In this document: piece by piece, positions 55,216 through 64,000 of the stretch
Layout: each line of letters begins with the position of its first letter
Position numbering within the stretch: position 1 is the stretch's first letter
Assembly: GCA_024742575.1 (NCBI GenBank)
Contig: JANSYF010000011.1
Span: 1-64,000, forward strand
From: Paracoccaceae bacterium
GTDB lineage: Bacteria > Pseudomonadota > Alphaproteobacteria > Rhodobacterales > Rhodobacteraceae
Direction: 5' to 3'
Length of the DNA: 64,000 nucleotides
The notes under the pieces: model-generated
Databases searched by the model: none
What the model saw: the letters and a program-made list of their open reading frames with translations, nothing else
What the model was told of the DNA's origin: nothing
Made by a program: the position numbers and the translations under genes

Positions 55216-55290
55216 GGGTGATTAGCTCAGTGGTAGAGCGCTTCGTTCACATCGAAGATGTCAGGAGTTCGAATCTCTTATCACCCACCA
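55216..55290 (+). tRNA. tRNA-Val (CAC anticodon)
   Basis: Cloverleaf read by eye: acceptor GGGTGAT/ATCACCC, D arm GCTC/GAGC, anticodon stem CTTCG/CGAAG with loop TTCACAT (anticodon CAC, valine GTG), T arm AGGAG/CTCTT, discriminator A and encoded CCA (55288-55290). It is intact and is the probable attachment site of the island that follows. Confidence 0.95.
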
Positions 55291-55363: not shown

Positions 55364-56728
55364 ATGGGGAGTAGACGGCAGGGGTCGCTAGACCTAGCTC
55401 AGGATTATCACGCCTCCTCGTTGGTCAAAGTACCATCCAAAAAGAACACCTATTACGTCTATGTGACACGTCCTCAGGTACTTCAGACCAAAGGCAAGCA
55501 AGCAAAAAGGTCCACCCGCACCACAGACCTCAAGATTGCTCAATCACGACAGCACCAGATCACTGAAGAAATCTACCAAGAGTTCGACAGACAGCTATCC
55601 GAGTTGAACTCTTTTGACGCTCAGGTTGACAAGATACTTGCAGGTAGGGGGATCAACAGGGACCTTCTGAGAGCCTTGGAGCCGTCCGGTGAGGTGCCTG
55701 ACCAAACTTCGCTAATGATCCTCCTCAAAAGCCTTGGTGTAGCTATCACGCCTGAACTGGTAGCCGCTATGGAACCTCAGTACCGCCAAGAGGTGCAGGA
55801 ACTAGGTAGACCTCAGCCACCTGTAGATATGCTCTCTGATGTAGCCGCTATTGCTGCTGAGGATAGATTTTCGGACTACCTGCCCCTTTACCTTGAAGGG
55901 AGAAGTTGGAACCGTCTGAGCACCCGTGGGGAGGCTAACAGGTACATCACCCAATTCATCAAACAGGTGGGGAACCTGCGCGTATCAGAACTCAAGGTAA
56001 AACATGCCTACGACTGGGCGCGGATTATGCACAACTCAGGTGCTTCAAACTCTCGGATAAAAGCTGCAATCTCTTATGTCCGTGGCTTACTTCAGTGGTG
56101 TATTGAGTGTGGCCACCTTGAAGAGAACCCTTGGGCAGCAAAAATCACCCTGACCAACTACGGTGTGAAAAAGAAGCACTACAAGCCATTCACCAAGAAG
56201 CAGCTACACCAACTCTTTGCCTTAGACATGAAGGATGAGGACCGTCTGCTGTTATCCATTCTGATTACTACAGGTATGCGTTTGGATGAGGCTGCACTCC
56301 TGTCGTGGGAAAATATAAAGATTGAAGGCGAAGAGGTGCCTCACTTTGACTTGCTTGGTGGTATTGTGAAGAACTCAGGTTCAGAGAGGTTTGTAGCTAT
56401 CCCTGACGTGTTGCTGAGACGGCTACCAGAGAGAGGGCAGGGGCGTTTGTTCTCCTATCCCTTAGATGCAGATGGTAAGGCTCAGAGGAAGGCCAGTGAG
56501 CGCCTTGGTAGGTATATCCACAAGATAAGGACTGACCCCAAGCAAGTTACCCACTCACTGAGAGGCACATTGAAGGACCTATTGAGGGATGCAGGTGTTA
56601 CCAAAGAGGTGAATGACTTCATTACAGGGCATGACCAAGGGGATCAAGCTGGTAACTACGGCTCAGGACCATCTATGGAGGTGCGCCTAGAGGCAATAAA
56701 CCGTGTGGATCATGCTTGGTTGAAATAG
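55364..56728 (+). CDS. int: Tyrosine-type site-specific recombinase (integrase)
   Basis: A 454 aa integrase. The N-terminal part is long (DNA-arm and core-binding domains; the latter at about residues 170-260). The catalytic residues fit: Arg in TGMRLDEAALL (about 305), HSLRGTLKDLL (about 396), the second His in TGHDQGD (about 422), and Tyr in GNYGSGPS (about 432). It sits 73 bp after tRNA-Val, the usual place for the integrase of an element in that tRNA. Confidence 0.92.
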   Translation: MGSRRQGSLDLAQDYHASSLVKVPSKKNTYYVYVTRPQVLQTKGKQAKRSTRTTDLKIAQSRQHQITEEIYQEFDRQLSELNSFDAQVDKILAGRGINRDLLRALEPSGEVPDQTSLMILLKSLGVAITPELVAAMEPQYRQEVQELGRPQPPVDMLSDVAAIAAEDRFSDYLPLYLEGRSWNRLSTRGEANRYITQFIKQVGNLRVSELKVKHAYDWARIMHNSGASNSRIKAAISYVRGLLQWCIECGHLEENPWAAKITLTNYGVKKKHYKPFTKKQLHQLFALDMKDEDRLLLSILITTGMRLDEAALLSWENIKIEGEEVPHFDLLGGIVKNSGSERFVAIPDVLLRRLPERGQGRLFSYPLDADGKAQRKASERLGRYIHKIRTDPKQVTHSLRGTLKDLLRDAGVTKEVNDFITGHDQGDQAGNYGSGPSMEVRLEAINRVDHAWLK

Positions 56729-57405
56729 AGATGCTGAAAGAAAAACCCGAGTGCGTTAGCACGAACCCCCAAGGCTGTTACACCAAGGGGGCTGTAGCTA
56801 TAATACTATACTACGATACAAACTACAGATAGAAACTACCAAGAAGGGTACTGAGGAGATTGCTTAGACCGTTCCGTAAGGATAAGGGCTGATAGGCAAG
56901 CTCATACTCAGGACCAAATACTTCGAGGGTTATACTACAGAAGAACTACACAAAATAAGAGGGAATCTTAAGATTCTCACCTATAAGTATATCCCCGACC
57001 TTCGGTATCTCGGGGACTCTTAATCTTTACTCTCTCAGCATACCTACCCAAGATACCCTACCACATATGTAGTCCTTACCCTTACGGGTCGGCCTAAGTG
57101 GCAGGTCTTGGATAGTGCTGAAATAACTACAAAAACAAAAGAAGGGACTGTAGGTATAGCTAACAGATACCTGTGTAAGTCACTTATAGCGTAGGTCTCT
57201 CTCTGGTTGTTTGTAGTTACCTCTTTAGTATATACACTATGAAGGGACGCTTTTGAGTGGGCCTACAGATGAACCTCTTTAGTATTACACTATGAAGGGA
57301 CGCTTTTGGTGTAGCTCTTTAGTATTACACTATGAAGGGACGCTTTTGGTGTAGCTCTTTAGTATTACACTATGAAGGGACGCTTTCATTTGATAATGTC
57401 CTACC
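56729..57405. other. Non-coding region between convergent island genes
   Basis: About 680 bp with no credible frame. It holds hairpins: GTGC-GTTA-GCAC (about 56751), CCCCC/GGGGG (56767-56792), CCCCGA/TCGGGG (about 56993-57015) and ACCC-TTAC-GGGT (about 57080). The last part is the direct-repeat block described separately. Stretches like ATACTATACTACGATACAAACTAC recall the repeats at 62.8-63.2 kb (first 20 bases shown would be ATACTATACTACGATACAAA). Confidence 0.6.
57221..57388. repeat. Four direct repeats with 40-bp period
   Basis: The core CTCTTTAGTATTACACTATG AAGGGACGCTTT begins at 57221 (variant with an extra TA), 57275, 57315 and 57355. The last three are 40 bp apart with identical linkers; the first is 54 bp from the second. 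They could be binding sites of an element-encoded protein (iteron-like) or phage-type promoters: TTTAG...ACACTAT.GAAGGG resembles the SP6 RNA polymerase promoter. No such polymerase gene is in the window. Confidence 0.85.
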
Positions 57406-58116
57406 TTAATGGGCGCTCAGAGCCTCCTTAGCGGCTGTTCTGTGGCTTTGTCCGTCATAATACCAAGGATGGATATATCGACCACTGGGGTCTCTTGCTG
57501 GACCTTTCTGCACTCTGGGTAGTTCTTCCTTTGCTTTACGCTTCTTGTGACCAGCTACAGCAGGCTTCCACCCTTGAGCACCAATGCGAATGTTAATAGT
57601 GCCATCTGCAAGGGCCTCACCTGTACTCGGCTCAGGTACATTACCCTTCAGGAATTCTTGTAGATAACAGTTCCAAGGGCTGTTGAGTAGATAATGATTA
57701 CAAAGCTGAGGAAAGGTCTTGTAGCTTTTAGGTGAATTACGAAAGAATAACTTTTCCTGATTACGGTTGGGGTATTGGTATTTCTTGTTCTGTAGTAGTG
57801 CTCTCAGCAATCCGCCCTTAGAGTGTAAGGCTACTTGTAGAATATCCTCAACATAACCCATTCTTTCCTGCGGTGGCATAGTGTAAACCTTCTCACTCAG
57901 TACTGCGTTTAGGTGCCACAACTCCACATTTTGACGAACCTCAGAGGGAAGCATATTGTTTTTAGTGCGACATTGCTCCTCTCTCAGTACCAGCTTACTA
58001 TGGGCTTTACGGCACTTGGGTTTACAATACTTTTTGTTGCTTCGGTACTCGAACAGGTCCCCACAATTAGGACATACAGACTTAGAGAGGGTATCAAATG
58101 ACTCAATTACACTCAT
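57406..58116 (-). CDS. Zinc-finger protein of the island
   Basis: A 236 aa protein. The N-terminus has a zinc-binding pattern CPNCG (Cys15, Cys18) and YCKPKCRKAH (Cys31, Cys35). The middle is helical and basic; the C-terminus has KKRKAKEELPRVQKG and DPSGRYIHPWYYDG. It likely binds nucleic acid. I do not recognise the family. Its start is preceded by a double hairpin and AAGAGG. Last gene of the minus-strand run. Confidence 0.72.
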   Translation of the reverse strand: MSVIESFDTLSKSVCPNCGDLFEYRSNKKYCKPKCRKAHSKLVLREEQCRTKNNMLPSEVRQNVELWHLNAVLSEKVYTMPPQERMGYVEDILQVALHSKGGLLRALLQNKKYQYPNRNQEKLFFRNSPKSYKTFPQLCNHYLLNSPWNCYLQEFLKGNVPEPSTGEALADGTINIRIGAQGWKPAVAGHKKRKAKEELPRVQKGPARDPSGRYIHPWYYDGQSHRTAAKEALSAH

Positions 58117-58133
58117 ATCTTTAGTCCTCTTAA

Positions 58134-58161
58134 GATGCGTAGCATCGACGTCCTTACGGAC
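58134..58161 (-). repeat. Double hairpin H1
   Basis: On the minus strand GTCC-GTAA-GGAC (58161-58150) then GATGC-TAC-GCATC (58146-58134), just before the ribosome site of the zinc-finger gene. The first hairpin includes the stop codon of the upstream gene. GTAA is a GNRA loop. Confidence 0.75.
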
Positions 58162-58600
58162 TAGTCAGAATAAGGTTAGCTCTACGGATAGTAGGAAGGT
58201 CCACACCAGCAAAGAATGTCTTGTCAGCGTATGGGTAGATAATACCTCTAACAGTAGAGTTGTGAGGGAAGCTGAGAGCCTTGTTCTTAGTACGGTAGAG
58301 TAGAAGATTGCTCTTGTTAGCTGGTGTAAGAAGGTGTACGTACTCTTTTGAGCGGTACCCAGTAACTACAACACTTAGACGAACCCAAAAGTCTACTTGC
58401 GCGGTAGGTAGGGAAGGAACTGTGAAGAGGAAGCTATTAGCCTTTAACCCCTTCTGGACCCGCTCATAGATAGCGAAACGCTCTTCAACAAACTGTATAC
58501 GACCCTCTGTCCAGTTGTCCTCTTCTAGGTACTTAGCAGCGGTCGTCTCGTACCACTTGAAATTCTTAGCTACAATCTCACACTTCTGTCTCACTTGCAT
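58154..58600 (-). CDS. Hypothetical island protein
   Basis: A 148 aa protein starting MQVRQKCEIVAKNFKWYETT. The start at 58600 is fixed by AAAGGAG seven bases upstream; the in-frame ATG at 58630 lies in a hairpin. The C-terminal part is beta-rich. No family recognised. Confidence 0.68.
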   Translation of the reverse strand: MQVRQKCEIVAKNFKWYETTAAKYLEEDNWTEGRIQFVEERFAIYERVQKGLKANSFLFTVPSLPTAQVDFWVRLSVVVTGYRSKEYVHLLTPANKSNLLLYRTKNKALSFPHNSTVRGIIYPYADKTFFAGVDLPTIRRANLILTSP

Positions 58601-58614
58601 GTCAATCTCCTTTA

Positions 58615-58738
58615 GATGCAAAGCATCCACGCCCTTTGTGTTGCGCCAGCAAGCTGTCTGCCGGGCTAGAAAATACTGGTGTCAAAGTCTCTGCTAGAAT
58701 TACTGCATAGCTACGCAGTAGCGCCGACACTTCGTGTC
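58615..58738 (-). repeat. Hairpin cluster H2 and H6
   Basis: GATGC-AAA-GCATC (58615-58627), GCCC (58631-58634) pairing with GGGC (58663-58666) around a 22-nt insert (58640-58661) that also occurs at 59540-59561, ACTGC/GCAGT (58702-58719), and GACAC-TTC-GTGTC (58726-58738). This fills the gap between the sigma-like gene and the gene at 58154. Confidence 0.7.
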
Positions 58739-58759
58739 TTAAAAGAATAACAATATCCA

Positions 58760-59344
58760 TTATACCAGCCCTTCCTTAACCATGTAGTCTCTAATCTCTC
58801 TCATCAAATCGGCCTTATCGTGGCTCACTGTAGATTTATGCTTAGACCACTCTTCAGCTACTTCATTAACTTTGAGTTCACCACTCCAGATACCGATTAG
58901 GGCAAGTCTGTAAGGATCGTCACCTACGACACTATAAGCACCTTGGATAATCTCATTCTTAATCAAACTATCCTCTGCACTATCCTCAACACCATAGTTC
59001 TCGTAAGCGTAGCTATCTAGAAAACCTTCTGGTTGATCTTCAATGTAAGTAGTTCTTTGAGACTTCTCTAGCTCGTCTAGTGCAAAGCCATTAATCCGAG
59101 TGACTGACTGCTTGAGTACATCGTCTTCACCTAACCAACCCTCATGCACAAAGGCTAAGCGATCTAGGATAGGGTAAAGCTGTGATACAAGTTCCTCTCC
59201 TTCGATGTGGGTAATCCCGTAACGGTTAAGTTTACTCTGAGCTATCTTGACGAGTGTGTAGTAGTGTTCTCCGAAAAAAGCTTCTATCTTGCGGTGTTGG
59301 TGTAGCTTCTCTTCTGGTGTTAGTAATACTTCTTCATGCTTCAT
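58760..59344 (-). CDS. Sigma-70-like protein of the island
   Basis: A 194 aa protein with features of a small sigma factor: a region-2-like helical part (FFGEHYYTLVKIAQSKLNRY through GEELVSQLYPIL) and a region-4-like helix-turn-helix at the C-terminus (LKVNEVAEEWSKHKSTVSHD). It may redirect host RNA polymerase to element promoters. Sequence match is weak, so another HTH regulator is possible. Confidence 0.55.
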   Translation of the reverse strand: MKHEEVLLTPEEKLHQHRKIEAFFGEHYYTLVKIAQSKLNRYGITHIEGEELVSQLYPILDRLAFVHEGWLGEDDVLKQSVTRINGFALDELEKSQRTTYIEDQPEGFLDSYAYENYGVEDSAEDSLIKNEIIQGAYSVVGDDPYRLALIGIWSGELKVNEVAEEWSKHKSTVSHDKADLMREIRDYMVKEGLV

Positions 59345-59360
59345 TTAATTCTCCAGCAGC

Positions 59361-59375
59361 GATAGCTGCGCTATC
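59361..59375. repeat. Hairpin GATAGCTGCGCTATC, copy 1
   Basis: Perfect stem GATAG/CTATC with loop CTGCG just upstream of the sigma-like gene. The surrounding 22 bases (59355-59376) recur at 60434-60455. Confidence 0.6.
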
Positions 59376-59400
59376 TACAATTTTTTTAATAAGCTCTATA

Positions 59401-59487
59401 AGCCCCGTACAGTGCGATCTAAGGCTGTAGGCTATGGTCATACCTGAAAAGGTAACTACAGCACTCAGTGAGGCTCTCTGTGGCTCT
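59401..59487 (-). repeat. Leader repeat A (87 bp)
   Basis: Highly similar to 59890-59976, with 49 consecutive identical bases (59430-59478 and 59919-59967). On the minus strand it contains TACCT-TTTC-AGGTA and CACTGAGTG and lies upstream of the sigma-like gene. It may be a promoter, operator or structured leader. Confidence 0.82.
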
Positions 59488-59490
59488 AGA

Positions 59491-59565
59491 GATGCGTAGC
59501 ATCCGAGCTAGCGTCTAGCGACCTAGTGACGTCCTTACTGTTGCGCCAGCAAGCTGTCTGCGGAC
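59491..59565 (-). repeat. Double hairpin H3
   Basis: GATGC-GTA-GCATC (59491-59503), GCTAGC-rich spacer, then GTCC (59531-59534) pairing with GGAC (59562-59565) around the 22-nt insert also found in H2. Confidence 0.7.
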
Positions 59566-59579
59566 TAGGGTGGGGGTTA

Positions 59580-59819
59580 TCAGTCTTCTTGTAGCTGTCG
59601 GTAGATAATAGACCCCAAAGGAATCTTCTTATCCTTGCGTAGTTTCAAAATATCCTTGCTAATGACCCAGTAAGCCTTTTGAGCGTCCTCTGAGGTTAGA
59701 CCCTTTAGGCCATGCTCTAGACCTGCTTCAGCTACCTGCTTAACGGTTACTGGTGCATTCTTTGTGATGTAGTCTTGGACCCAAGTGCGGCGCTGTTTGG
59801 CAATATAACGAATAGACAT
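59580..59819 (-). CDS. Hypothetical island protein
   Basis: A 79 aa basic protein (MSIRYIAKQRRTWVQDYITK). The middle VKQVAEAGLEHGLKGLTSED could form a winged-helix-like fold. The start at 59819 has AAGGAA upstream. Repeat block B precedes it and A follows it. Family unknown. Confidence 0.62.
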   Translation of the reverse strand: MSIRYIAKQRRTWVQDYITKNAPVTVKQVAEAGLEHGLKGLTSEDAQKAYWVISKDILKLRKDKKIPLGSIIYRQLQED

Positions 59820-59889
59820 AATTGGTAGGTTCCTTCTAGAAGGTAAGATTTGATTAAGTTCTGTTTTGAGATTTGATAGAGCTAGAGAA

Positions 59890-59976
59890 AGCCCCATACA
59901 GTGCCATCTAGAGCGTTTGGCTATGGTCATACCTGAAAAGGTAACTACAGCACTCAGTGAGGCTCTCCGTGGCTCT
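59890..59976 (-). repeat. Leader repeat B (87 bp)
   Basis: Second copy of the 59401-59487 block, upstream of the gene at 59580. In this copy AGCCCC at one end can also pair with GGGGCT at 59977-59984. Confidence 0.82.
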
Positions 59977-60005
59977 GTGGGGCTATCTAGTAGTAGTTAC
60001 TTAGA

Positions 60006-60033
60006 GATGCGTAGCATCGACGCCCTTTCGGGC
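60006..60033 (-). repeat. Double hairpin H4
   Basis: On the minus strand GCCC-GAAA-GGGC (60033-60022), then GATGC-TAC-GCATC (60018-60006), directly after a stop codon. GAAA is a GNRA loop. Confidence 0.75.
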
Positions 60034-60377
60034 TACTTCAGTACAGTGACCTTATGGCCGCTTTTGTTGATGTACTGCTTAAAAACGCTGTCGTTCTTGA
60101 AAGTGGCCTTAGGCTTATCCTGACCCTTAGAGATAGCATCCTTAGCGTACTCAATACGAAGTAGGACTTGGTTAGGACCCAGACCACCACAGTTGTTACC
60201 TGTAGACTTCTGGAGTGCGTGTAGTTCTTCACCAGCCTTGAGCACTTCTTGAGCATAGGACTTATCATCCTTAAACTTGTCCCAAGCCTTCTTTAGTTGA
60301 AGCTGTAGGTCTACACCCTTTTTAATCTGTTTGAACTGTTCTTTAGCTATGTGGTGTGGTTTAGAATCATAACTCAT
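60033..60377 (-). CDS. Hypothetical island protein
   Basis: A 114 aa basic, helical protein (HIAKEQFKQIKKGVDLQLQL). It overlaps the stop of the upstream gene by ATGA. Family unknown. Last of five overlapping genes. Confidence 0.66.
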   Translation of the reverse strand: MSYDSKPHHIAKEQFKQIKKGVDLQLQLKKAWDKFKDDKSYAQEVLKAGEELHALQKSTGNNCGGLGPNQVLLRIEYAKDAISKGQDKPKATFKNDSVFKQYINKSGHKVTVLK

Positions 60378-60568
60378 TTGAATTTCCTTGTTCGACGTTT
60401 TTGAGGTTTAGGTTTATCTTGGTCTAGGTCGCTAGCAGCGATAGCTGCGCTATCTATAGACGCTAGCTCGTTAATGTGGTTTATGATAAAGGCCATAAGG
60501 TCAGCCTTGGTGTTACCCTGTGAGAATATATATTGCTCTAGGATTCGTATGTAGGTCTTGTCGGTCAT
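60374..60568 (-). CDS. Small hypothetical island protein (64 aa)
   Basis: Starts MTDKTYIRILEQYIF and ends in a basic tail (PKPQKRRTRKFK). The region SIDSAAIAAS is encoded by a hairpin (60440-60454) shared with a non-coding site at 59361-59375, suggesting that the hairpin inserted into this gene. Overlaps both neighbours by ATGA. Confidence 0.62.
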   Translation of the reverse strand: MTDKTYIRILEQYIFSQGNTKADLMAFIINHINELASIDSAAIAASDLDQDKPKPQKRRTRKFK

Positions 60569-60669
60569 ATGACTCCTTCACATTGTAGGCACTGATAGTT
60601 TTCACCATTCCAATACAGCTTACTCTCACAGTAAGGACATTTCTTAACTAGTCCGATACTACGCGGCAT
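60565..60669 (-). CDS. 34-aa zinc-ribbon microprotein
   Basis: Starts MPRSIGLVKK and holds CPYC (Cys11, Cys14) and CLQC (Cys27, Cys30), a complete two-knuckle zinc ribbon. The start lies inside the end of the upstream gene in another frame and the stop overlaps the next start (ATGA). The position and motif support it as real. Confidence 0.65.
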   Translation of the reverse strand: MPRSIGLVKKCPYCESKLYWNGENYQCLQCEGVI

Positions 60670-60841
60670 TGGTGAGACTTTCTTGGTTGGTAAGGTAATC
60701 TACATACCACTGAGCTTCTTTATAAGTGACAAAGTATTTATCATTAGCTGTCACATACCTATTACGGACAGAATCATAATAGATACCTACTGGTAGATTT
60801 GCTCTAATGAACTCATCATACTCCTTCTTAGGGTTTTTCAT
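60659..60841 (-). CDS. Small hypothetical island protein (60 aa)
   Basis: Aromatic-rich protein (GIYYDSVRNRYVTANDKYFV) with a TAATG overlap with the gene upstream. No family recognised. Confidence 0.62.
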   Translation of the reverse strand: MKNPKKEYDEFIRANLPVGIYYDSVRNRYVTANDKYFVTYKEAQWYVDYLTNQESLTNAA

Positions 60842-61695
60842 TAGTGAGACCCCTGAGTTAGGTCTAACGACCCCCGCTGTTTGGCTTGTTGTGTAGCATG
60901 ACCGGCTACAGGTACCACACGACCGTCTCTTGTGTGCACCTCGCTGTACATCTTAGTTAAAGGCATACCTTGGCTACCTAACCATTTAATGGTGCGTACC
61001 TGCACAAAGTCTGCTAACTCATGAGCATGGTCCTCTACGCAAGTGAAACTGATACTTTCCGGGTCACCATCTTGAATAAGGACTGCCAAGAATCGAAACT
61101 TCTTTAGCCACATATCAATCTCATTGCGATATAGCTGCACCCTCTCACGCTGGTAGAGACCTTGGGGATGCTCTTCTAGCTTTGTGTAGTTGATAGGCAG
61201 GTCTTTACCCGTCATAAGGTAATCAAAAGTAGTCCCCACTTGCGGCATCACTACAGGAACAGCATGTCGGCTATTCATTTGGGTAACTAGACGTGGGTCG
61301 GTTATGCTAGATGCCTTCTGAAAGCGTACATAGTTGTTGGTACATTTGAAAGGTAGGTCTGGTGGTCCAATATCCCTAACTACAGTATGAGGGGCCTTAG
61401 GGTGTATACGGTAGGTATTACGATTAACCCGCTGTAGGAGATAACCGACGAGACACTTAGCTACCGTCTGATAAGCTTTTTTGTAGACTTCCAGTTCCTT
61501 CCCATCGTATTTGTCCTTAAGGTGAGTGACGCTTAGGTCAAACTCAAAGCCACGTAGAGCTAGACAGCCACAGATAACCGATTTAGTGATCTGCATAGGT
61601 ATCTTTAGCTTAGCGTCGATGTATTGGTCTATGAGTGACTGTACGTATTGACTTGTCGCTGCACCATCCGGTACAAAATTGTGGTGTATTTTCAT
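60841..61695 (-). CDS. Hypothetical island protein (284 aa)
   Basis: First gene of the overlapping run. Soluble, mixed helical and beta; it has LKIPMQITKSVICGCLALRG and a segment FTCVEDHAHELADFV. RBS AGGAATG lies upstream. I do not recognise the family; an element replication or regulatory role is possible but not shown. Confidence 0.65.
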   Translation of the reverse strand: MKIHHNFVPDGAATSQYVQSLIDQYIDAKLKIPMQITKSVICGCLALRGFEFDLSVTHLKDKYDGKELEVYKKAYQTVAKCLVGYLLQRVNRNTYRIHPKAPHTVVRDIGPPDLPFKCTNNYVRFQKASSITDPRLVTQMNSRHAVPVVMPQVGTTFDYLMTGKDLPINYTKLEEHPQGLYQRERVQLYRNEIDMWLKKFRFLAVLIQDGDPESISFTCVEDHAHELADFVQVRTIKWLGSQGMPLTKMYSEVHTRDGRVVPVAGHATQQAKQRGSLDLTQGSH

Positions 61696-61722
61696 AATTG
61701 AGACATTCCTAGTTAGAAAAAG

Positions 61723-61824
61723 CCCCTACAATGACTCTCAAGCCCTCACCTAGGAGTAGCTGAATAAGGGGAAACCCTAGGCTGGCCTATGCACAACCAG
61801 TAAGAGCGAAAGTCACTGTAGGGG
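61723..61824. ncRNA. Structured RNA candidate 1
   Basis: A 14-bp closing stem (61723-61736 with 61811-61824, one mismatch) encloses AGGG-GAAA-CCCT (61767-61778) and CTGG/CCAG (6182-85 and 97-100 of the 61700s, i.e. 61782-61785 and 61797-61800). The GAAA loop is a GNRA tetraloop only on the plus strand, opposite to the genes. It may be a leader of the 61695 operon or a separate plus-strand RNA. Confidence 0.55.
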
Positions 61825-61826
61825 AG

Positions 61827-61896
61827 AAGACCCAAGAGTAAGCCGAAAAAGATGGAAAACAACTTACTCTATCAGGTGGAGTAACCTGTGGGTCTT
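61827..61896. ncRNA. Structured RNA candidate 2 (three-way junction)
   Basis: AAGACCCA (61827-61834) pairs with TGGGTCTT (61889-61896), AGAGTAAG (61835-61842) with CTTACTCT (61863-61870), CAGGT (61873-61877) with ACCTG (61884-61888). All pairs are perfect and only two bases of the junction are unpaired. Strand not certain; it lies in the minus-strand leader before the 61695 gene. Confidence 0.6.
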
Positions 61897-61912
61897 GGAA
61901 CCTATACGGTAG

Positions 61913-62218
61913 CTACAAGAAAAAGTTGGGAAGATTCTCTGCTAGGTCTGGTGCGTCACGTCTTACTTCTTTGGCGTCCTTTACTGTCCTTTCTCCAACA
62001 TTAAGAGACTTAGCGGCCTCTGCTGTAGTTTTGGAATCCGGCGAATTTGCCGCTTTGCTACTTGAGTGTTGATTATTCCCGTTACCACCTACAGTCATAT
62101 TAGCCAAAGATGTCTTATCGTCCGAATTCGGACTATTAGAATTTTCACCCCCGTTACCACCCACAGTCATATTAGCCAAAGAAGCAGCAGCCTCTGCTGT
62201 AGATTTTGCATCGGGCAA
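61913..62218 (-). pseudogene. ParB-type C-terminal remnant with internal duplication
   Basis: A 101 aa frame starting at TTG. It contains SLANMTVGGNG twice and ends NVGERTVKDAKEVRRDAPDL, like the HTH linker region of ParB-like phage proteins (motif LNVSERTVxxAKxV). The ParB nuclease-like N-terminal domain is absent, and two TGA codons lie upstream in frame. Probably a decayed, internally duplicated fragment. Confidence 0.55.
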
Positions 62219-62265
62219 ATTTGCCCCTTGATCTGACTTCCTGTCACCTCATCAAGAGAGATACT

Positions 62266-62610
62266 TTAATTAAGTTCCTCTTGTATTGACTGGCAATGAC
62301 ACCGCTCAGGATAACACCAACACCCTAACGCGCGTCCCCTAAGAGGGCTTACATCTAGGTTAGGTAACACTTCCTTCTCGAACCTATCGCAGACTTCATC
62401 TCTAGTCCCGTGCTTGGGGGACCTGAAGGGGTTATGCCAAGGGCTTTGTTCATGTCCGGTATAGAACACACGATCCCCGCAGTAAGTAAGAAGTCCCTTA
62501 TCGTGAGCATACTGAGCCACTGGGTCCACATAAGAACCCTTACGCTTATTCATGCGTACCACTACAGCTTTACCAGCGTTCAGGTCAGCAATGCGTTTTT
62601 CAATCTCCAT
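62266..62610 (-). CDS. DUF4326 protein
   Basis: A 114 aa protein with DUF4326 features: WHNPFRSPKHGTRDEVC and GRALGCWCYPERCHC with clustered Cys/His that may bind metal. DUF4326 is common in phages. The start at 62610 follows AAGGAGAG. It is the most upstream minus-strand gene seen here. Confidence 0.8.
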   Translation of the reverse strand: MEIEKRIADLNAGKAVVVRMNKRKGSYVDPVAQYAHDKGLLTYCGDRVFYTGHEQSPWHNPFRSPKHGTRDEVCDRFEKEVLPNLDVSPLRGRALGCWCYPERCHCQSIQEELN

Positions 62611-62820
62611 CTTTTCTTCTCTCCTTACAGTAGACGCAGTTTTAACCCCGGTCAGGTTATTCCCTGCGAGGTTGGCCCCTCTAGCCCGTAGGGCGTCGAC
62701 ACGACGTGTCTCTTGAGCCTAGCGATGTGAAAGTGCACCCAAGAGGGGAACACCAGTTGTTAGGTAGGTTTGTTAGACACTCTCAAGTGAGAAGGTCTTG
62801 AGCGTAGTTTCCTGCGCCTC

Positions 62821-63219
62821 TCTACTATACTATAGCAACCTTTTTTCAGAGAATCCACGTAAAGCTGACGTAAGGTCAATCCTAAGCTATTGGAATCTAA
62901 TGTATCTTTTCTGAGATGTATTATTGCTACCGCCAAGTTGTCGGTTGGACTACACCACAAGATGGTCACTTGGGATGGCTCCTAAGAGGAGAACTACACA
63001 AACAATAACTATTAGTTGCAATTAGCAAGAAGTCATGACTCTTAAGATTCAAAACTTAAGCTACGTATCTCTATGTGTGTATATTCACTATGAGATGTAA
63101 AACTTAAGAGGGAAACTTAAGAGTCTCTACTATACTATAGCAACCTTTTTTCAGAGAACTCACATAAAGTTGACGTGAGGTCAATCCTAAGCTATTGTAA
63201 TCTAATGTATCTTTTCTAG
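62821..63219. repeat. Direct repeat of about 93 bp, two copies
   Basis: Copies at 62821-62914 and 63126-63219, starting TCTACTATACTATAGCAACC and ending ATGTATCTTTTCT, about 90 percent identical by eye. Copy 2 contains TTGACG, 17 bases, TATTGT, a fair sigma-70 promoter on the plus strand; copy 1 has the weaker CTGACG/TATTGG. Confidence 0.82.
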
Positions 63220-63252
63220 GAAGTATTACCCCGGTGTACTACAATAGTGTTG

Positions 63253-63502
63253 CATGTTCCTCTTCGGTGGCAGCCGTTCCATCATTTGATGGATCGATAG
63301 AGTTCTTCTTGGGATGGAGCCGTTGCAGAATTTTCTGCATCGATAGAGTTCTTCTTGGGACTGTCCTATCAGCTACACCAATCCCATCTACATGATCTTC
63401 CAGCGGTGGGACCATTGTATCATTTGATACATTGATAGAGTTCTTCTTGGGACTCTCCTATCAGCTACACCAATATCTTCGGCATGATCCTCTGCGGTGG
63501 GA
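63253..63502. repeat. Hairpin array 1
   Basis: Three hairpins occupy one slot: CCATC-ATTT-GATGG (63279-63292), GCAGAA-TT-TTCTGC (63325-63338) and GTATC-ATTT-GATAC (63417-63430). Each is followed by a near-identical 22-mer starting ATCGATAGAGTTCTTC (ATTGATAG in the third), and the last two by a further shared 45-50 bp. The stem sequence changes on both sides while pairing is kept. Confidence 0.8.
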
Positions 63503-63511
63503 ACTGAACCT

Positions 63512-63916
63512 CCGAAATTTTTCGGACCTTTTGACCTGTCTCCGCTTTTACGAACAATGCACAAGCATCCACCAAGGCAAAAAAGGAGCGTGCTCCCCTT
63601 TTGAGACCAATGCACAAGCATCCACCAAGGCGAAAACTGCGGACCTCCGCACATTTGACCAATACATGAGGGTTGCAAGAGTTCAAAAATTTGTCGCGGC
63701 AAACATTTGACCAATGCACAAGCATCCACCAAGGCGAAAAGTGCCTCGCGGGGCACATTTGATCAATACATGAGGGTGACCAAGGCAAAAAGCACCCACG
63801 GGTACCATTTCAAACAGTGTACATTCGGGTCGCGACCCGAAAAACTTCAGCTCTGATGTAGAGAATATCACTACGCTAGTGAGATCAACCGCCAGAGAAA
63901 AGTGCAGGTCACTGCA
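63512..63916 (-). repeat. Hairpin array 2
   Basis: Hairpins at 63512-63525 (CCGAAA-TT-TTTCGG), 63585-63596 (GGAGC/GCTCC), 63639-63650 (GCGGA/TCCGC), 63690-63703, 63741-63756 (GTGCC/GGCAC), 63794-63803, 63824-63841 (18-bp palindrome) and 63903-63916 (TGCAG/CTGCA). Flanks such as CAATGCACAAGCATCCACCA (63555, 63609, 63713) repeat. On the minus strand most stems are followed by a T-run, so they look like successive terminators. Confidence 0.8.
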
Positions 63917-64000
63917 AAAAACTTCAGTAAGCACGTTGAGGGAGGACTTTGGGAAGCCTCAAGAGCCTGTGACTACGCAAAGCAGATTAATCAATCGAGA

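Follow-up and report, generated by a model that had tools for sequence, protein, structure and literature searches.

When repeats occur in the control region of a mobile element, they are usually taken for iterons, binding sites of a protein whose letters must stay fixed. What, then, is an array of short hairpins whose stems differ from unit to unit and still pair? We investigated this question for an array near the right end of the window, the term used here for the whole analysed stretch, bases 1-64000 of a 68,827-base contig; the bases to the right of 64000 were read in L003. The host, which we take to be an alphaproteobacterium, has a draft genome, 87% complete and in 126 contigs.

Anatomy of the array

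Between 63278 and 64017 the array has 13 hairpins, which belong to three families of repeats (A, B and C). Within each family the flanks are near-constant, and the stems differ yet pair:

63270-63314, + strand: A1 unit, hairpin 63278-63293, TCCATCA-tt-TGATGGA
63316-63360, + strand: A2 unit, hairpin 63324-63339, TGCAGAA-tt-TTCTGCA
63408-63452, + strand: A3 unit, hairpin 63416-63431, TGTATCA-tt-TGATACA
63511-63526, + strand: A4 hairpin, TCCGAAA-tt-TTTCGGA, an A-type hairpin with a B-type right flank
63585-63596, unstranded: B1 hairpin, GGAGC-gt-GCTCC
63638-63651, unstranded: B2 hairpin, TGCGGA-cc-TCCGCA
63690-63703, unstranded: B3 hairpin, TTTGTC-gc-GGCAAA, one T.G
63741-63756, unstranded: B4 hairpin, GTGCCTC-gc-GGGGCAC, one T.G
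63792-63805, unstranded: B5 hairpin, GCACCC-ac-GGGTAC, one C.A, then TTTTT on the minus strand
63824-63841, unstranded: C1 hairpin, TTCGGGTC-gc-GACCCGAA
63868-63882, unstranded: C2 hairpin, TCACTA-cgc-TAGTGA
63903-63916, unstranded: C3 hairpin, TGCAG-gtca-CTGCA
64006-64017 (L003:3006-3017), beyond the window: fourth C hairpin, GGGT-tgcg-ACCC

The sequence-only reading had placed about eight pairing, GC-rich stems at roughly 50-bp spacing in 63512-63916. We found nine stems at 63511-63916, 32-74 bp apart from start to start, unrelated in sequence and all pairing. The stems of that stretch are real, but the array starts earlier, with the A units from 63278, and ends at 64017, the last hairpin appearing on the proposed extension to the right of 64000. 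GC-richness does not hold for all stems, A3 having GTATC. Among the repeated flanks, CAATGCACAAGCATCCACCAAGGC occurs in three exact copies, and CATTTGACC in two exact copies and one with a change; copy spacings are 46, 92, 53 and 104 bp, none divisible by three. In the fold of the A units on the + strand of the window, a T.T mismatch separates two outer pairs from six inner pairs, and the loop is ATTT. The loops of B and C differ from ATTT, and most are CNNG-like.

Three further palindromes with differing stems (about CGGCGAATTTGCCG, GTCCGAATTCGGAC and GGGCAAATTTGCCC) at 62042-62226, two of them sharing a repeat in which C-G became G-C, were not counted in the array. They lie inside an ORF with repeated segments (61913-62218), which has one weak IMG/VR relative (L035, 40%, query residues 45-94) within a 558-aa ORF that we take to encode a ParB-HTH/methyltransferase-like protein.

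Compensatory change in the stems

We aligned A1-A3 by their flanks alone, and all 18 of 18 pairs formed, compared with 10/18 in the next best register. This flank-only register is the strongest test for a folded strand. In the alignment, four of the six inner pairs and one of the two outer pairs, the latter standing past the T.T mismatch, had changed on both sides, and none of the eight pairs was broken. Four extra outer pairs proposed for A by RNAalifold showed no double change and one break. For B2-B4, both-sided change was found in 4/5 pairs, with 15/15 cells paired; B1 and B5 were left out of this count because their centres sit one base off.

We then counted the seven A-type units together, that is A1-A4 and the units of a related array in the genome G123 (below). 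The results showed 54/56 cells paired, with double change in 7/8 pairs and in 15 cells, counts that lean towards structure, since the search model that picked out the G123 units scores pairing favourably. In 500 shuffles, none reached the percentage, the cells or the score, while the number of pairs was reached by 4/500 and the pair types by 37/500; slid partners paired to at most 51.8%. The ATTT loop was invariant (7/7), and the T.T mismatch was present in 6/7 units, with C.C in A4. The earlier claim that unrelated stems pair inside repeated flanks was thus borne out, with compensatory changes in the A units, in B2-B4 and in the seven A-type units. Because pairing is kept while the stem letters change, conservation probably acts on a single strand in its folded form, be it RNA or ssDNA. 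Such a strand would explain why the two arms of a stem change in step, which a protein dimer bound to double-stranded DNA would not.

Excess of palindromes and folding energy

Perfect palindromes (stem of at least 6, loop 2-8) numbered seven at 63240-63960, against a mean of 1.07 and a maximum of 3 in 60 first-order Markov resamplings. In the 55.2 kb of the host part, no 720-bp stretch held more than five palindromes (loop 2-4), compared with seven in the array. The complementary run averaged 5.85 between own arms and 2.72 between swapped arms, and 0 of 200,000 permutations reached the total, although this test is biased upward because the centres were chosen as hairpins. Between B2 and B4, 53/58 flank bases were identical but only 8/16 stem bases. 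A detector for repeat-flanked palindromes with different stems (strict Watson-Crick) returned two pairs in the element, none in the 55.2 kb of host and one in 406,333 bases of other loci, a figure that leaves out the 20 loci from the same contig.

Folded as a whole, the 771-nt array region was no better than shuffles (z -0.35 minus, -0.55 plus; 20 shuffles each). Folded singly, the A1-A4 hairpins were more stable than shuffled sequence whichever strand was taken (z -2.2 to -3.4), and six B and C hairpins (B1-B5 and C1) gave z -0.01 to -2.9 on the plus and -1.1 to -2.9 on the minus strand. Cross-pairing between stems was at chance (2.72 vs 2.70), as expected if stem letters drift freely, and selection for mutually orthogonal stems was not supported.

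Across 16 hairpins, 84/89 stem pairs were Watson-Crick, with four wobbles on the + strand and one on the - strand; an outer pair of the G123 hairpin G123c adds one wobble for the - strand, and wobbles hardly separate the two strands. Template-switch correction of short imperfect palindromes is known, and such a process could hold the palindromes perfect and leave a fold without function, in keeping with the exactness of these pairs. It could also change the arms in pairs, but it should leave neither a T.T mismatch amid covarying pairs nor an ATTT retained in one orientation, and both persist here. The conserved flanks and the existence of a related array elsewhere also speak against it, and we regard this explanation as improbable.

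A related array in another genus

We built covariance models from A1-A3 (R1) and from the seven A-type units (R2). In the host, R1 returned A1-A3 and one weak further match (C77, E 0.41), and R2 returned the four A units (E 1.8e-6 to 0.006) and one match at 0.13 (C80); no further array copy was significant elsewhere in the host. In 345 genomes of the family, its own included, R1 matched seven others at E <= 0.01, with about three expected by chance. Six of the seven matches were single: four were mainly flank-driven (L076, L078-L080), and two were single hairpins (L077, with broken pairs, and L081). The seventh is a tandem array in another genus, at G123:C1:1454145-1454269 (L073:14145-14269, minus strand). 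The sequence-only reading had proposed such a model and had named a lack of related arrays and of transcription as grounds for rejection; R1 located a related array in G123.

The G123 array consists of three tandem hairpins, 43 and 52 bases apart, all with the loop ATTT and with stems CCGAC, CCATC and CCTTC. The inner stem of G123a is the same as that of A1, so G123 contributes two new stems. The left flanks resemble the A left flanks (GGAACCATT in the middle unit), and BLASTN between the two arrays gave 28 bases at 89% (E 5e-6). In 185 genomes around G123, R2 gave multiple matches in G123 only; three others had single weak ones, which is within chance for 185 genomes at E 0.05. A DNA search of plasmids and phages with the G123 stretch gave no match. 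The known loci are two, one element and one short relative.

The start of the G123 array is about 140 bases upstream of a gene for a serine resolvase (PF00239, E 2.2e-35). On the other flank of the array is a 105-aa ORF, which partly matches transposase-annotated genes in 11 plasmid records; one of these records gives an accessory protein of the IS66 family. With three palindromes packed into 125 bp so near a resolvase gene, the array could be a set of serine-resolvase binding sites. Recombinase half-sites keep their letters, however, whereas the array stems vary. Upstream of two other resolvase genes, in L051 and L053, no such palindromes are present, and no resolvase was recognised among the nine scanned proteins of the window element. 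We consider this identity very improbable. Res sites (PMC9943657) are matched by the three palindromes close upstream of the G123 resolvase gene and not by the 13 variable-stem hairpins of the array at hand.

Terminators, promoters and coding frames

The sequence-only reading had also noted T-runs after most stems on the minus strand and likened the stems to terminators in series. The T-runs are there: a minus-strand run of at least four T within two bases of the stem accompanies 6/9 hairpins in 63511-63916 and 7/13 overall, and the minus-strand stem of B1 is 11 pairs long, AAAA in one arm and TTTT in the other (z -2.9). No run of four T lies by the stem in 6/13 hairpins; the A units, whose form the G123 relatives share, have no T-run at all. 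We scanned 3.6 kb around the array for a stem with at least three G-C pairs followed by at least five T in eight bases, and found two sites, against 2.3 expected. Because both proved to be array hairpins (B5 and C3, minus strand), a barrier of serial minus-strand terminators keeps a small probability, similar in order to that of template switching but lower. A series would call for such sites in most units; only 2/13 hairpins fit the scan definition, their number is at chance level, and the likeness to intrinsic terminators, a hairpin followed by a minus-strand T-run, extends to part of the units. The serial claim is accordingly weak. Sigma-70-like promoters were not in excess (5 vs 6.2 expected).

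No reading frame runs through the array. Stops occur in all A frames and in all B/C frames, save for short open stretches in B and C, and the copy spacings are not multiples of three; the coding frame that could have overturned the earlier claim is absent from this sequence. For five array ORFs, Pfam and PHROG searches with hits allowed up to E 10 returned no significant match, and no profile supports the HTH-like minus-strand stretches of A ('TAEDHAEDIGVADRRV'). Decayed or frame-shifted coding repeats would account for the short stretches that look like protein on the minus strand of A and on the plus strand of C (a 77-aa ORF) and for the palindromes within ORF 61913-62218 with its weak relative. 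The broken frames, the lack of a significant Pfam/PHROG match for the array ORFs and the compensatory pairs make this origin quite improbable, and a coding array was rejected. A known RNA family was ruled out as well, since no Rfam family reached gathering score at the array: Rfam 15 at gathering score found one tRNA in the window, and a permissive search of L003 and 56700-64000 found tRNAs and two sub-threshold matches only.

The host element

The array lies in an integrated, low-GC element of about 10.8 kb (55272-66116), inserted at tRNA-Val(cac). GC is 44-46% across 56001-64000, compared with 53-63% in the host part. The borders and the integrase are as follows:

55216-55290, + strand: tRNA-Val(cac), of which the 3' bases 55272-55290 form the left attachment core
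55364-56728, + strand: element integrase (PHROG 1, E 1.5e-32; Pfam DUF6538, E 8.3e-7)
66098-66116, beyond the window: right attachment core, a 19-base second copy of the tRNA 3' end (AATCTCTTATCACCCACCA)

The integrase also matched Pfam Phage_integrase (E 1.1e-5), slightly short of the family cut-off. The eight other ORFs studied, at 57406-62610, are all on the minus strand and include one DUF4326 protein (E 2.9e-13) and one short HNH-endonuclease PHROG match (E 5.1e-5); the remaining ones had no clear Pfam/PHROG match. In 62611-66098 the longest ORF does not exceed 122 aa and repeats are abundant. This is the element's largest non-coding stretch, and the array sits within it amid long inverted and direct repeats.

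Several other structures were observed in the element. An inverted repeat, 56799-57288 vs 64357-64928 (blocks of 337 and 162 bp, 94-95% identity), brackets the minus-strand genes and the array. A 109-bp inverted pair, 63026-63134 / 64653-64761 (94%), forms a long CTTAAG-rich hairpin in each copy, and 63026-63125 folds with z -6.7 (minus) and -5.1 (plus). Between orphan genes, an 88-nt intergenic repeat occurs at 59400-59487 / 59889-59976 (91%), its second copy with z -3.7 on the minus strand. Small GATGC-nnn-GCATC hairpins (58128-58163, 58617-58640, 59485-59505 and 60000-60035) are intergenic in the element and close to minus-strand start sites. On the minus strand, 61695-61935 is strongly structured directly upstream of a 284-aa ORF (z -5.1 over 241 nt, 100-nt windows down to -5.9) and terminates in a long helix, then CTTTTT; its appearance is that of a leader or small RNA, with no Rfam match in the permissive search of 56700-64000.

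The motif TATnnnCACTATGARRkG, which in our view resembles T7/SP6-type phage promoters (a resemblance only), occurs in four tandem copies on the left (57230-57383, +) and in three more close to the array:

63082-63097, + strand: motif copy
L003:3396-3416, - strand: motif copy
L003:3690-3705, - strand: motif copy

A longer form of the motif has zero copies expected by chance. A helper phage was sought through it: exact IMG/VR scans gave 0 matches in one case and six contigs with one match apiece in the other.

Relatives of the element

Exact IMG/VR scans for the A, B and C flanks gave 0 matches. Nothing was found by a DNA search of phages and plasmids with 57400-64000, and no relative of the element DNA was present in the family or genus genomes. 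The 284-aa and 194-aa ORFs had no relatives, and seven joined element proteins searched against phages gave nothing. Relatives of the integrase were absent from the genome contigs; eight distant ones (21-28%) occurred in IMG/VR and one at 43% among 100 other genomes (G297), where no element is readable because the contig ends right after the integrase gene.

The 236-aa protein with a Cys-rich N-terminus (57406-58116, minus) has relatives in 12/344 other family genomes. Several adjoin tRNAs and integrases or resolvases, and one, in L050, lies within an element of 7.9 kb that has a 107-bp repeat of tRNA-Tyr at its borders. In the 12 stretches around these relatives, the densest 700 bp held 2-5 palindromes (GC up to 0.65), and R2 gave no match better than E 5.

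Control region or platform

The main rival explanation is a control region or replication origin, in which the constant flanks would be iteron-like initiator sites and the hairpins would form on single-stranded DNA at initiation or mark dimer sites. The position of the array in the largest non-coding stretch, amid long repeats, agrees with this. The closest published setting is the PLE satellite of Vibrio cholerae, which has several repeats in a non-coding region and an origin with iterons; these are direct repeats of semi-palindromic form, and their arms converge on an A-tract (PMC7145576, PMC8263062). The array is similar to this RepA_N-type origin in position and repeat style, since in both cases semi-palindromic repeats stand in tandem where an integrated element is non-coding. 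The A units also have the RepA_N iteron trait of direct repeats holding inverted repeats around an A/T tract, their arms lying around ATTT in copies 46 and 92 bp apart. The PLE arms, however, have a fixed recognition sequence, whereas the array arms change in pairs (4/6 inner A1-A3 pairs differ). Neither RepA nor any other replication protein was recognised among the nine element proteins, most of them orphans, and no GC-skew turn singles out the array. An origin is therefore rather unlikely, though it ranks first among the alternatives.

In logic, the array comes closest to the Csr/Rsm decoy RNAs such as RsmZ, whose several stem-loops bind protein through one constant loop motif, A(N)GGAX (PMC4005645). 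In both, the stems differ and a single loop motif stays constant, which would make a platform for binding. RsmZ-type loops carry GGA, whereas the array has ATTT (7/7 A-type) and no GGA in its four-base B/C loops. CRISPR arrays share the alternation of constant and variable pieces, but here the variable pieces are palindromes of 12-18 bases and unit lengths vary; no Cas family was found among the nine scanned element proteins. No described element of this form appeared in the literature at the level of titles and abstract openings.

We favour a multi-copy platform, because iteron arms must keep their letters and these do not, and because the loop logic is like that of Csr/Rsm. Each unit would fold as a single strand into a small hairpin in which pairing, loop and flanks are kept and stem letters drift through paired changes. 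The copies would then present the constant loop and flank to a binding partner; our guess is a protein or an RNA that comes from the host, from the element itself or from a helper. The most likely form would be a transcribed non-coding RNA serving as scaffold or decoy, RNA over ssDNA being a guess. For this reading, taken jointly with the view that the array belongs to the non-coding control region of this mobile element at a tRNA gene, we put the probability at roughly 0.38. Weighing against it are the lack of a promoter excess, the unremarkable stability of the array as a whole, the wide spread of z among the singly folded B and C hairpins and the small number of loci. A plain mRNA leader is unlikely because the orientation to the next gene differs between the two loci.

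The anatomy, the compensatory change, the constant A loop and the related array in a second genus are observed features of these loci. Kept pairing and changing stem letters in two genera point to a folded single strand, which we infer to be the working form. It is possible, though doubtful, that the array represents an undescribed family of tandem hairpin elements in the mobile elements of this bacterial family, whose stems diversify while a single-strand fold of eight pairs with a T.T mismatch and an ATTT loop stays conserved, and which would serve, as RNA or ssDNA, as a platform for capturing a factor of the host or of a helper phage. The covariance model is available for searching other mobile elements. 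Should the array act as a scaffold or decoy, a satellite-like element would have a new tool in it.
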